A stretch of 64,000 nt of DNA from Dehalobacter sp. DCA. GTDB taxonomy: Bacteria > Bacillota > Desulfitobacteriia > Desulfitobacteriales > Syntrophobotulaceae. This document shows positions 58,331-63,446 of the stretch, piece after piece. Location of the stretch: NCBI RefSeq assembly GCF_000305775.1, contig NC_018866.1, positions 806,001 to 870,000 on the forward strand, given 5' to 3'. The notes beneath the pieces were generated by a model that was not told the origin of the DNA, ran no database searches, and saw only the letters and a program-made list of their open reading frames with translations. Both the position numbers and the translations under genes were made by a program. Position 1 is the first letter of the stretch; the number at the start of each line of letters is the position of its first letter.

Positions 58331-59125
58331 TTATCCAACCTTACTCATCACCCGAAGCTTATCAGCGAGCAGTGCAATGAATTCAGAATTGGTAGGTTTT
58401 TGACGTTCTATGTTCATCGAATATCCGAAGATCCGCTTCAGCGTTTCCATATGTCCGCGTTCCCAGGCCAGCTCAATGGCATGTCTGATGCCTCTTTCCA
58501 CCCTGCTGGGAGCCGTATTGTATTTCTTAGCAATTGCCGGGTACAGCTCTTTGGTTACAGCCCCGAGTAACGAAACATCTTCGATTACCATGAGTATTGC
58601 ATCTCTGATGTATTGATATCCTTTGACATGAGCTGGAATACCAAGTTGGTGCATCATTGTCGTTACTTCTACGTTGATATTGACCCCTCTTCCGACCGAC
58701 GTAACAGAGGAACAAGTCTGCAGCAGCGGTGGATTTGTGATTTCCAGATCCTGCGTCAGCGTCCTGATGCGTTTTCCCAGAATTTCCAGGTCAAATGGTT
58801 TCAGGATAAAATAATCAACCCCCATGACCATGGCCTGATGCGTCAGTGTTTCATGCCCGAAAGCCGTTAATAATATGACTTTGGGTTTCCTGACTGATGT
58901 TCTGGCATTGATTCTTTCCAGGACTTCCAAACCATCAAGATTCGGCATCACAAGATCCATAATGACGAGATCCGGGTCATGTTTTTGAATCAAATCCCAA
59001 GCTTCAAGTCCATTGTAGGCTACGCCAGCAAGCTCAAAGCTATCATCCTTTGAAATATAATCCTGAAGGATCTGACATAGATTTCGATTATCCTCGGCTA
59101 CAATAATCTTTACCTTTTTTGACAT
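58331..59125 (-). CDS. spo0A: sporulation master regulator Spo0A
   Basis: About 265 residues. Receiver: IVAEDNRNLCQIL (acidic pocket), DLVIMDLVMPNLDGLEVLE with the phosphoacceptor Asp, LTAFGHE (Thr switch), ILKPFDLE (Lys). C-terminal Spo0A DNA-binding domain: IPAHVKGYQYIRDAILM, YPAIAKKYNTAPSRVERGIRHAIE with the recognition helix. ATG at 59125 has GGGG upstream; the ATG at 59182 does not. No spoIVB neighbour, unlike Bacillus. Confirms that the organism sporulates. Confidence 0.97.
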   Translation of the reverse strand: MSKKVKIIVAEDNRNLCQILQDYISKDDSFELAGVAYNGLEAWDLIQKHDPDLVIMDLVMPNLDGLEVLERINARTSVRKPKVILLTAFGHETLTHQAMVMGVDYFILKPFDLEILGKRIRTLTQDLEITNPPLLQTCSSVTSVGRGVNINVEVTTMMHQLGIPAHVKGYQYIRDAILMVIEDVSLLGAVTKELYPAIAKKYNTAPSRVERGIRHAIELAWERGHMETLKRIFGYSMNIERQKPTNSEFIALLADKLRVMSKVG

Positions 59126-59416
59126 CTCTACATTTCCCCGCTTTATCATATTTTTCCCGGTTCGTTTTTCCGGTAGTATCATTATAAATCAGCGGAGATG
59201 TCGAATTCTTAAAAAATAAGGAACACTTTCTAATTTTGGCATTTATTGCAAACGCCTGTCCCATCTGCAAAAAACGATATTTGAGAATTATTTTTTTTCG
59301 TTAAAATAAGCCAATTTATTTTTCGTCCTACATATTATCCCGAACTTCAAGAGAATTTCAGTGTAAATATTAAAGTTTTGTCTTGTTCTGACGAGTTACC
59401 GTATCTGCATGATGTT
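59126..59416. promoter_or_regulatory. spo0A upstream region with candidate promoter and 0A box
   Basis: 290 bases without a gene. TATAAT (59188-59183, minus) is a possible -10 box for spo0A. The 0A box TGTCGAA is at 59199-59205 on the plus strand, just upstream of that -10. Autoregulation by Spo0A-P is inferred. Confidence 0.55.
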
Positions 59417-59605
59417 TCAGCTGATGATAATTGCTTCCGTCGGACAACCGTCGGCTGCTTCCTGCGCTGATTCTTCAAGAGTCTCCGGAACCTGTTCCTG
59501 ACGCGTTACAGCCAATCCGTCATCATCCATTTCAAAAATGTCCGGGCAAATTGCAGGACATGCTCCACATCCGATACAGGCTTCTTTTTCTACATAGGCA
59601 ATCAT
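59417..59605 (-). CDS. 4Fe-4S ferredoxin
   Basis: 62 residues. CIGCGACPAICP (Cys 11, 14, 17) plus Cys in DGCPTEAI give one [4Fe-4S] cluster. Acidic, soluble; matches the single-cluster clostridial/thermophile ferredoxins that feed Ech and other enzymes. GGGGTGAA precedes the ATG at 59605. Confidence 0.9.
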   Translation of the reverse strand: MIAYVEKEACIGCGACPAICPDIFEMDDDGLAVTRQEQVPETLEESAQEAADGCPTEAIIIS

Positions 59606-59679
59606 GATGTTCACCCCAAATTATTTTTGTCAATCGTCGATTGTATTGTTCCCAAGGTGACTAAAGATATGCAAATTTT

Positions 59680-60099
59680 CTATTCGGGACTCATCTCTAC
59701 GATTTTCAGACCATTGTCTTGTTGTTCTACTATAATCTGGTATGTAAGTACTTTTCTTTGATCAATGGATGATCCCGTCGTAATTTCAACCAAATAACTA
59801 TTTTGCGCAGAAGTGTTTTGAATCTCCACGTTTTGAACACTTAAAAATGGATTATCCTGAAACATCTGCTGCAGTATGCTATTCGTAGCTTCGGCCTGTC
59901 CTGATGCCAGAGCCGAAGCAAGATCAAATTGCCTGTAATCAAGCTTTTCCCAATAATCTTCAATCACTGCCTTCGGATTTGCATAACTTTGCCCATTGGC
60001 TATTGCTGAAACTGCAGTATTCGGATTCTGCCACCAGACAATGACGCCAATAAAAAAAATACTGCAGACAAGTATAAAAAAATGACGGTTCAATAACAT
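59680..60099 (-). CDS. secreted or anchored hypothetical protein
   Basis: 139 residues: a membrane anchor or uncleaved signal (FFILVCSIFFIGVIVWW), then an alpha+beta domain with NPKAVIEDYWEKLDYRQFD and QIIVEQQDNGLKIV, like NTF2-like (DUF4878) folds. No cysteines. Function unknown. It could lie in one transcript with the genes on either side, but no overlap supports this. Confidence 0.6.
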   Translation of the reverse strand: MLLNRHFFILVCSIFFIGVIVWWQNPNTAVSAIANGQSYANPKAVIEDYWEKLDYRQFDLASALASGQAEATNSILQQMFQDNPFLSVQNVEIQNTSAQNSYLVEITTGSSIDQRKVLTYQIIVEQQDNGLKIVEMSPE

Positions 60100-60164
60100 A
60101 ATTTCCCTCCTAGCCCTTTTACTATAATATAGGAGGGAAATTGGAAATTCATGACACCCGGCAA

Positions 60165-60233
60165 TTATTTGTTGAAGATTTTTTTCAGAAGATTAAGTAC
60201 GGACTGAGGCAGCTTGATATAGTACATTTTCAT
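60165..60233 (-). CDS. spoVM: SpoVM-like sporulation peptide, 22 codons
   Basis: An ATG with a strong GGAAGGAGGAG upstream opens a 22-codon frame starting MKMYYIKLP and ending LKKIFNK. Bacillus SpoVM is a 26-residue amphipathic peptide beginning MKFYTIKLP; Pro9, which kinks its helix and lets it sense membrane curvature, is retained, with the K, Y and IKL positions. It recruits SpoIVA to the forespore surface in Bacillus. Four residues shorter than usual. Too short for ordinary gene finders. Confidence 0.8.
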   Translation of the reverse strand: MKMYYIKLPQSVLNLLKKIFNK

Positions 60234-60292
60234 AGGATTTCTCCTCCTTCCAGCACTGCTGTCTTGAGAATAATTTATGCGGCAGCCTGATT

Positions 60293-60646
60293 TTATACAA
60301 CGTGGTAATTTTTAACAGCATCTTCAAGCTGTTTGACTAGTTCGATTTCCTCCGCCGTTTTTGCCGTGAAATAAAGTTTTCCTACGATTGACGTCAGCAT
60401 TTTCAAAACATCTTCAAAGGTCAGTTTATCTGTGAGCGCCAATTTTTCACTTGTTTCAATCATGGCAATTCCAAATTGATGTCCGACACCGTCTTTCATC
60501 ATCTTCGTACAGGATTTTCCCAACAGTTTCATGACAAGTGCAGCTTCCTGCGTATCGAGCTGCCGTACGGCATCAATGGTGGTATAAAATCCCTGGACGA
60601 TCCTGACGCCAACATTGGACCAATCTACCGGCTGAACCATTTCCAT
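60293..60646 (-). CDS. hypothetical helical protein
   Basis: 117 residues, mostly alpha-helical (GFYTTIDAVRQLDTQEAALVM; FEDVLKMLTSIVGKLYFTAK). GGAGGAA before the ATG. No family recognised. It lies 60 bases upstream of spoVM on the same strand. No sign of a membrane helix or signal. Confidence 0.55.
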   Translation of the reverse strand: MEMVQPVDWSNVGVRIVQGFYTTIDAVRQLDTQEAALVMKLLGKSCTKMMKDGVGHQFGIAMIETSEKLALTDKLTFEDVLKMLTSIVGKLYFTAKTAEEIELVKQLEDAVKNYHVV

Positions 60647-60660
60647 TCCTCCTCAAAAAA

Positions 60661-60690
60661 TAACCTGTGCCTTACTATATGCACAGGTTA
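60661..60690 (-). terminator. terminator of the dinG-like gene
   Basis: TAACCTGTGC/GCACAGGTTA perfect 10-bp stem, loop of ten, followed on the minus strand by TTTTTT. Confidence 0.85.
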
Positions 60691-60728
60691 GATGAGGGGT
60701 GAAATCAGTTCCCGAATATTCTGCGTCT

Positions 60729-63446
60729 TTACGCTCTTGAATTGCCGATTACGGGTACCTGAACCGATGAAACCTTTTGGAGGACGCGCTCCGAACTTCC
60801 CTGATAGAAAGAAGTAATCGGCAGGGCCTGCAGAAAATATCGGCCATACCTTTTTTTGATAATCCGGTCATCCAGAACAATCACGACGCCTTTATCCTCT
60901 CTCGTTCGAATCAAACGTCCAAAACCCTGCTTGAAGCGGATAATTGCTTCAGGCAAATTTAACGCATAAAACGGATCAAGTCCCTGACTTTCCAACAGGC
61001 GGGCCTTCGCTTCCAGAATGGGCGTATCCGGCGGCCAAAACGGCAGTCTGACCATGATGACACAGCGCAGCATGTCCCCGGGAAGATCGATGCCTTCCCA
61101 AAAGCTGTTCGTTCCAAGCAGGACACTGCTGTTGTTCTGCATAAACTCCTGTAGAAGGTCTTCCCTGGTGCCGTCAATCCCCTGGGCCAGCACATTCAGG
61201 TACTGGCAGCATTCTTCATTACCCAACAAGTGGTATACCCGCTGCAAATACCGGTGGGAAGTAAATAATACCAGTGTACCTCCATTCATCTCTTCGGCAA
61301 TTCTCCCAATAAATGAAGCAGTCTTTTCTGCGAGCCTATCCTCCGGTAGATTTACAGATAAATCATTGACGACACAGAAAACCATTTGTTTTTCATAATC
61401 AAACGGTGAATCCAGCTTCAGGCTGATATAGTCCTCTACTCCGATATCCCTGGTCAAATACGTAAAATCCTCACCGACACTTAAGGTGGCAGAAGTTAAA
61501 ACCGTACAATTATTTTTACTGAATATTTTTTTATTTAATAACGGAGCAACATTGATCAGCGTGTTTTTTAAATAGACTGTGTTGCTTTTTTCGAGATAGG
61601 TTACACGTTCTTCCTCACTTTTACTAACGATCTTGCCAAATCCGTCAACGATTTGGGTAAGTTCACTTTTTATTCTGCTAATCTCATATCTGGTTTCTTC
61701 CAACTGCTCACTTTCAAGAGCCAGAAAGGTATTAATTCTATCCAGCACCTCCACAATGCCTTTAAACCTGATGATCAGATTTTCCGAGGCCAGCAGGATC
61801 ATCTGCAGGATATCTTCGCCAACCTTTTCTGGGTCTAAGCGAAGACTGAACTGTCGGCCAAGCACGCTTTGCAGCATGCTGAAAAGTTCCTGGGCCTGAT
61901 CCGCAGCCGCCCTGCAGCGATCCGGAATCTCTTCAAGATTGCTTTTAAAATAGGTCCAGTTAAAGGCAGGGAAGACCTCTGCCCAAACAGCATGATTTCT
62001 TTTCAGATAAGCGAATAGATTGCCTTTCCCACCATAGATACTGTCCGTCAGCCGCAGCATCTGTTCGAGGCAAATTTCAAATCCAAGTTGCTTGAGCGCA
62101 GTCTGGTAAATATTATGCGCTTCATCAATGATAAGATTGCTGTATTCCGGCAGAATCTTATAATTCGTTTTGATGTCGGCAAGGAGCAAGGAGTGATTAA
62201 TCACAAGAACATCAGCAGCCTCGGCTCTCTTCCTGGCATTATAAAGGTAACAACGTGAAGTAAAGGAACACTCTCCGGGTTGACAGGCCGGATTATCCGC
62301 GCCAAATTTTCGATAAGTCGGAACGAAGCTTTGATTATTCGGCAGTTCTCCAAAATCCCCGGTTTTCGTTTCAGAAGCCCAGGAAAAGAATGCGGCCTGC
62401 CGGAGTTGTTCATCATGGGTTGTATAATCCGTAAACAGCGATTCCTGATAAAGGCATTTCAGACATAAATAATTGCTCTTACCCTTAAGCAATGCTGTTT
62501 CAAATGGGAAAGGCAGGATCTTCTGCAGCAGCGGAAGGTCTTTGCTGAAGAGCTGCTCCTGCAAAGTGATGGTGTGGGTCGCAACAATCACCTTCTGCTG
62601 ATGCCTTTTGGACCACCAGAGTGCCGGAATCAGATAGGCAAGCGTTTTCCCTGTTCCTGTACCGGCTTCAATCACAACATCTGTCGCTTCGGTAAACCCT
62701 TTCAGAATCTCAGCGGCCATGACGGTTTGAATCTCTCTGTTTTCAAACCCTGGAATATTGCTGGCGAGTAAGCCGTCCTGGCCGAAACACTGCACAGCCC
62801 AAGCCGGCGAATCAGGAATCTCAGCCAAATCATCCATACCGGGGCTAAAAAGATTTTGTGCCGTCTCTCCCCGGTAAGGTGCAATACGGATGGGCCTGTC
62901 CGGATACGTTCGCACGATTTCTTTTTTCAATTCGGTTAGTACAGGCTGACAGGAAAGACCTTTTGTATATTCTTCCAACTTACTCAAGAAACCCAAATCA
63001 GCCTTCATCCCCTTTTCCCAGCACTGCAGAAGCAGGTCATAGGTCAGCCGGACCCTTTTCTGGGCCGTTGATATAAACCTGTGATGTTTCTTTATCTTAA
63101 GTTTATCGGTTATTTCCTCTAAGCTTTGCTGGCTGACTGCTGGGAAAAAAACTGCGGCAAGTTCCTGAACCTCAATCACGTTCTGGTTCAGATTAATTTC
63201 AAAATATTTTTTCAAATCCGGCAGGATTTTCTTATGCTCATAAACAAATATAAGGGCATCATGGGTAAAATCTTCAAGGCTTTTTTTATGCTGCTCCATT
63301 CTGCTTGGGGCTTCACCTTCGCCCTGAAACGAAAATATCAGATATTTTGGGAATACCCCTTTTCCCAAGCGCAGAGCTGCCAGGTACCCGCGTTCTGAGG
63401 GAGTACCCGGATGTATTAGAGATAGGACTACACAAGCCTGATTCAA
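60729..63446 (-). CDS. dinG: DinG/XPD-family ATP-dependent DNA helicase
   Basis: 905 residues. Walker A EAGTGTGKTLAYL (Q-motif region at about 240), DEAH box LIIDEAHNIYQ, TSATLSVGEDF (motif III), and VLLGTNSFWEGIDL plus FKQGFGRLIRTRED (motifs V/VI). Cysteines in YLCLKCLYQ and CQPGECSFTSRC match the iron-sulfur cluster of XPD/DinG enzymes. The N-terminal 230 residues carry no exonuclease signature (no DEDD) and look like a lineage-specific domain. Repairs or unwinds DNA structures. Confidence 0.9.
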   Translation of the reverse strand: MNQACVVLSLIHPGTPSERGYLAALRLGKGVFPKYLIFSFQGEGEAPSRMEQHKKSLEDFTHDALIFVYEHKKILPDLKKYFEINLNQNVIEVQELAAVFFPAVSQQSLEEITDKLKIKKHHRFISTAQKRVRLTYDLLLQCWEKGMKADLGFLSKLEEYTKGLSCQPVLTELKKEIVRTYPDRPIRIAPYRGETAQNLFSPGMDDLAEIPDSPAWAVQCFGQDGLLASNIPGFENREIQTVMAAEILKGFTEATDVVIEAGTGTGKTLAYLIPALWWSKRHQQKVIVATHTITLQEQLFSKDLPLLQKILPFPFETALLKGKSNYLCLKCLYQESLFTDYTTHDEQLRQAAFFSWASETKTGDFGELPNNQSFVPTYRKFGADNPACQPGECSFTSRCYLYNARKRAEAADVLVINHSLLLADIKTNYKILPEYSNLIIDEAHNIYQTALKQLGFEICLEQMLRLTDSIYGGKGNLFAYLKRNHAVWAEVFPAFNWTYFKSNLEEIPDRCRAAADQAQELFSMLQSVLGRQFSLRLDPEKVGEDILQMILLASENLIIRFKGIVEVLDRINTFLALESEQLEETRYEISRIKSELTQIVDGFGKIVSKSEEERVTYLEKSNTVYLKNTLINVAPLLNKKIFSKNNCTVLTSATLSVGEDFTYLTRDIGVEDYISLKLDSPFDYEKQMVFCVVNDLSVNLPEDRLAEKTASFIGRIAEEMNGGTLVLFTSHRYLQRVYHLLGNEECCQYLNVLAQGIDGTREDLLQEFMQNNSSVLLGTNSFWEGIDLPGDMLRCVIMVRLPFWPPDTPILEAKARLLESQGLDPFYALNLPEAIIRFKQGFGRLIRTREDKGVVIVLDDRIIKKRYGRYFLQALPITSFYQGSSERVLQKVSSVQVPVIGNSRA

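Follow-up and report, generated by a model that had tools for sequence, protein, structure and literature searches.

A probable divergent spoVM of 22 codons in Dehalobacter and related spore-forming bacteria

Does a very small gene in Dehalobacter sp. DCA encode a distant version of the sporulation peptide SpoVM? In Bacillus subtilis, SpoVM lodges in the convex outer membrane of the forespore by means of an amphipathic helix and recruits SpoIVA, which polymerises (PMC7911427). A 2012 survey located spoVM in all bacilli and in only some clostridia, and asks whether distant versions exist (PMC3533761). The gene considered here lies in a 64,000-nucleotide stretch of DNA, the whole of which was analysed and is referred to below as the window; the host genome is a single contig of 3,069,953 bases. 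Among titles and abstract openings, no earlier report of this locus was found; some of the peptides may already have been listed in supplements (e.g., Fig. S4 and Table S3 of PMC3533761), which lay outside the literature search. The features of the locus are collected in Table 1.

Table 1. Features at and around the spoVM-like gene (positions are those of the window)
Feature	Positions	Strand	Remarks
spoVM-like gene	60165..60233	minus	22 codons plus stop; ATG at 60233-60231, stop ends at 60165; product MKMYYIKLPQSVLNLLKKIFNK
Shine-Dalgarno sequence AAGGAGGAG	60241..60249	minus	7 nt before the ATG of the spoVM-like gene
Sigma-E/sigma-K-like -10 box CATAAATT	60272..60279	minus	one mismatch to CATACAHT
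Gene for 117-aa helical protein	60293..60646	minus	separated by 59 bases from the start codon of the spoVM-like gene downstream
DinG-type helicase gene	60729..63446	minus	upstream of the 117-aa gene
Inverted repeat AATTTCCCTCCTA ... TAGGAGGGAAATT	60100..60142	minus	13-bp perfect; would cover the Shine-Dalgarno sequence of the 139-aa gene
Gene for 139-aa protein	59680..60099	minus	downstream of the peptide; hydrophobic N-terminus, fast-evolving
Spo0A	58331-59182		

The initial annotation proposed a 22-codon frame with a very strong Shine-Dalgarno sequence, without naming the strand. The frame is real and is read from the minus strand; the plus-strand reading of the same positions, LFVEDFFQKIKYGLRQLDIVHFH, is irrelevant to it. 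The window contains 1,672 short open reading frames (16-45 codons after ATG, GTG or TTG, counted over both strands). AAGGAGG stands 5-20 nt upstream of this frame alone, and the shorter AGGAGG precedes just three; the ribosome-binding site of this frame is perfect. With so few codons, such a gene readily escapes notice. Two further statements of the same annotation, that the peptide keeps an MKxYxIKLP core with Pro9 and that it lacks four residues relative to the Bacillus peptide, also hold: the core reads M1-K2-x-Y4-x-I6-K7-L8-P9, and there are 22 residues against 26, the last four being those missing here.

The positions that are kept are those known to matter in SpoVM. Pro9 is the only fully conserved residue of that peptide, and mutations of K2, I6 and I15 are harmful in B. 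subtilis (PMC5607322, Fig. 1 legend); in particular, cortex formation is blocked by K2A and by I15A, and SpoIVA binding is lost with I6A (PMC5607322). When 19 members of the present family were aligned, Pro9 was found in every one of them, together with lysine or arginine at position 2, isoleucine, valine, phenylalanine or leucine at position 6, and a hydrophobic residue at position 15. Pro9 also occurs in all 50 named peptides, for which the search pattern required it. The register of the peptide matches SpoVM residue by residue from M1 to position 21, and for residues 10-21 the hydrophobic moment amounts to 0.45, a value that 0.24% of shuffles reach. With SpoVM of B. subtilis and related bacilli (NF033436), the peptide shares the MK-x-Y-x-[IVLF]-[KR]-L-P core with Pro9, the hydrophobic residue 15, an amphipathic C-terminal half, a net charge of +5 and co-occurrence with SpoIVA. 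Apart from length, it differs in having M, I or V at position 3 and Y at position 5, where the Bacillus peptide has F3 and T5, in missing the curated cut-off, and in the place of its gene, which is found downstream of dinG and not between thiN and rpmB.

NCBIfam model NF033436 scores MKMYYIKLPQSVLNLLKKIFNK at 14.4 bits (E 0.028), and since this lies below the curated equivalog cut-off of 31 bits, the proposed SpoVM-like identity is supported with the qualification that the peptide is a divergent variant. When all 18,950 NCBIfam models were compared with the 19 family members (E <= 10), just two models matched, both of them SpoVM: NF033436 matched 14 members (best E 4.9e-5) and PRK14741 matched 2. 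In a search with a profile of 12 SpoVMs drawn from the NF033436 search, MKMYYIKLPQSVLNLLKKIFNK ranked first of the 1,672 short frames (E 0.013), the next distinct frame having E 2.8, and profile-profile comparison with the same 12 SpoVMs gave a probability of 93.6 and E 2e-7 for this single pair. A genome-wide NF033436 search of the host genome (E <= 10) did not report MKMYYIKLPQSVLNLLKKIFNK, its sole match being a 10-residue chance match elsewhere. Against PDB chains, the family profile found no SpoVM entry and chance matches alone (orexin receptors, E 0.018), and the single peptide sequence gave no match to a solved SpoVM structure.

It could be argued that this is an unrelated amphipathic peptide whose likeness to SpoVM arose by convergence, such as a toxin or another small peptide acting on membranes, given that it is short and amphipathic and that its single-sequence match is weak. 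However, convergence does not readily account for a register kept residue by residue over 21 positions or for the intermediates found in other lineages. One of these, L064 (MKVYYIKLPRFLLSFLKRVLNK, with its TTG start read as M), is recognised by the canonical SpoVM profile at E 4e-7, and peptides of this type bridge the short family and canonical SpoVM. Co-occurrence with SpoIVA (see below) likewise speaks against convergence, which is considered very unlikely.

Conservation in relatives, raised in the initial annotation as a check on the gene, is extensive. The MKMYYIKLPQSVLNLLKKIFNK query matched 54 of 61 order-level genomes, the host genome included. In a scan for the family of the neighbouring 117-aa protein, with one genome per species, 50 loci were obtained and a peptide of 21-24 residues followed in all 50; the two samples share genomes and are not independent. 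These loci belong to Desulfosporosinus, Desulfitobacterium, Paradesulfitobacterium, Acididesulfobacillus, Gracilibacter, Candidatus Dichloromethanomonas and uncultured relatives. In the record L139 the peptide gene starts with TTG; L026, whose contig has the same length as that of L139, stands outside the counts relying on an ATG start pattern and, together with L040-L043, outside one motif-based listing. In a comparison of 50 distinct coding sequences, synonymous changes made up 55.6% of the codon differences; a random-substitution null gave 15.7%. The coding sequence of 21-24 residues is conserved and under purifying selection.

Selection within the genus bears on a different possibility, namely that the gene is a genuine spoVM in spore-forming relatives and a relic in Dehalobacter, where sporulation would have been lost. 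In the parts available of two publications on Dehalobacter (PMC4751268, PMC3910700), no spores are reported, as would be expected if this were so. However, four of five genomes of the genus encode exactly the same peptide, with synonymous codon changes only (between G004 and the window, for instance, there are three silent codon changes and no others), and even the fifth, G003, differs at twelve codons of which 8 are synonymous and 4 are replacements. Also contrary to a relic, the genome encodes Spo0A (TIGR02875, 363 bits against a cut-off of 200) and a full-length SpoIVA (TIGR02836, 773 bits). Loss of function in Dehalobacter is accordingly regarded as unlikely.

SpoIVA is the partner of SpoVM, and its distribution follows that of the peptide. 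It was found in 54 of the 61 order-level genomes, and its presence agrees with that of the peptide in 59 (both in 53, neither in 6); one genome (G002) has the peptide alone and one (G041) SpoIVA alone. The Fisher p value is 9e-7, with no correction for kinship; a single genus supplies five of the six genomes that lack both. These six (G007, G016, G020, G023 and G024 of that genus, and G055) also lack the 117-aa gene and are probable sporulation losses. In a phylum-wide sample of 299 genomes, SpoIVA was present in all 46 with a family match (E <= 0.01), compared with 257 of 299 overall (p 5e-4, likewise uncorrected for kinship).

The region upstream of the gene was examined for signs of mother-cell (sigma-E) expression. 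CATACAHT is the -10 consensus of sigma-E and sigma-K, and a box of the form CATANNHT was found ahead of the peptide gene in 40 of 55 loci, compared with 4.7 expected from dinucleotide shuffles, although these are not 55 independent observations because the loci are mutual relatives; in the other 15 it was not found. In many Desulfosporosinus the box reads CATACATT. A sigma-E -35 element was sought by eye upstream of the peptide gene, and nothing convincing was seen. In Clostridioides difficile, SpoVM binds SpoIVA, is under sigma-E control and is largely dispensable (PMC5607322). The present peptide is likened to this clostridial SpoVM by description, and the dispensability of the latter cautions against assuming that the former is essential.

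The initial annotation had also considered that a second, better SpoVM might be encoded elsewhere; none was found. NF033436 exceeded its cut-off in none of the 61 order-level genomes. SpoVMs that do exceed it mostly adjoin genes that, judged by eye from their sequences, are rpe, thiN-like and asp23-like. In the host genome the corresponding gene row, which we take to be rsgA-rpe-thiN-rpmB-asp23-yloV (names other than asp23 being assigned by reading the sequences), has a thiN-rpmB gap of 96 bp without a SpoVM-like frame. The rpe-thiN-[spoVM]-rpmB-asp23 place is equally empty in eight other genomes; rpmB was in view at 9 of 32 loci, representing 9 of 21 genomes, so that "empty" means 9 of 9 and not 21 of 21. 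When a group was withheld from the SpoVM profile as a control, its canonical SpoVM was still recovered at E <= 1e-9 from the same type of frame list. Moreover, in the 299 phylum genomes the family matched in 46 and NF033436 exceeded its cut-off in 16, with an overlap of 0 against 2.5 expected. The place between thiN and rpmB is typical of SpoVM and probably not defining. Immediately upstream of four of the over-cut-off SpoVMs (L087, L089-L091) lies a tiny hydrophobic frame of 50-60 residues; it is possibly of the same kind as CD25622, a small C. difficile gene studied alongside spoVM (PMC5607322).

The peptide gene was further described as lying between helical unknowns, which holds for the upstream neighbour, the one that was modelled. 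The 117-aa gene is present in exactly those 54 of 61 genomes that have the peptide, and its product is predicted to be all-helical, with five helices (pLDDT 88.5). No family exceeded its cut-off for this protein, and Foldseek found no fold match to the model in the PDB at E <= 0.001. DAK2 scored 16.2 bits against the protein of the window, short of the Pfam gathering score of 27, and was weakly matched by 12 of 16 members of the 117-aa family (best E 6.3e-5). The protein is a candidate for an unrecognised sporulation protein. The 139-aa protein encoded on the other side was matched in 51 of 61 order-level genomes, and no Pfam family exceeded its cut-off for it.

Outside the order, dinG lies immediately upstream of the family match in 10 of 21 loci (L057-L059, L062, L067, L069-L071, L077 and L078) and within the flank in two more. 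The dinG-linked peptides of these other lineages are similar in length and mostly share an M[KR][VI]YY core; they differ in that no 117-aa gene intervenes and in that Pro9 is often followed by F-L-[RK]. The order-specific 117-aa gene would have come to sit between dinG and the peptide in the present lineage. At three loci (L063, L068 and L079), spoVM-like peptides are found immediately downstream of a gene resembling that for malic enzyme, so named from reading its sequence.

Between the peptide and 139-aa genes, an inverted repeat of at least 6 bp that covers the Shine-Dalgarno sequence of the latter is present in 44 of 55 loci, and in 14 aligned sequences three of its pairs are changed on both sides. 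These features would suit a leader peptide, in which translation of the short frame controls a hairpin over the Shine-Dalgarno sequence of the 139-aa gene and the sequence of the peptide itself matters little. However, selection acts on the amino acids, SpoVM models alone match the family, and related peptides elsewhere in the phylum stand behind dinG or the malic-enzyme-like gene in other surroundings; moreover, the repeat begins 22 nt past the stop codon of the peptide. A role as leader peptide is judged highly improbable. Thermodynamics lend the hairpin alone weak support (z -1.49, with 19 of 200 shuffles as good), and Rfam gave nothing near a gathering score in 59300-60800. The hairpin was also considered as a terminator and rejected, as its second arm reaches the ATG directly, without a T run. 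A conserved ATGAA...TTTCCCTCCTA...ATAGTAAAAG pattern in the region of the repeat may hide a promoter.

The MKMYYIKLPQSVLNLLKKIFNK gene is best explained as a functional, divergent spoVM, to which we assign a probability of about 0.8. Its product is most likely a divergent, short and relocated peptide of the SpoVM type. It would be made by the mother cell during sporulation, from a gene that in this lineage sits downstream of dinG and not at the thiN-rpmB position, and would anchor SpoIVA at the forespore membrane. That it does the same job as B. subtilis SpoVM is suggested because the key positions are kept in kind and residues 10-21 are predicted to form a strongly amphipathic helix. A more far-reaching proposal, that in this order the short SpoVM and the strictly linked, DAK2-like helical 117-aa protein form a two-gene coat anchor at the forespore surface, the 117-aa protein then belonging to sporulation, and that Dehalobacter keeps a working sporulation programme left untriggered in culture, is doubtful.

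If the gene is indeed a spoVM, the question of distant versions is answered for one order: there, SpoVM would take a short form beyond the reach of the curated model and in a different place. Peptides of 21-24 residues would provide a natural minimal SpoVM for studying curvature sensing and SpoIVA binding by so tiny a molecule, and the linked 117-aa gene becomes a candidate for encoding a sporulation protein. A short spoVM-like gene has persisted throughout an order of spore-formers, including a genus never seen to sporulate, and this makes a search for spores in Dehalobacter more worthwhile.
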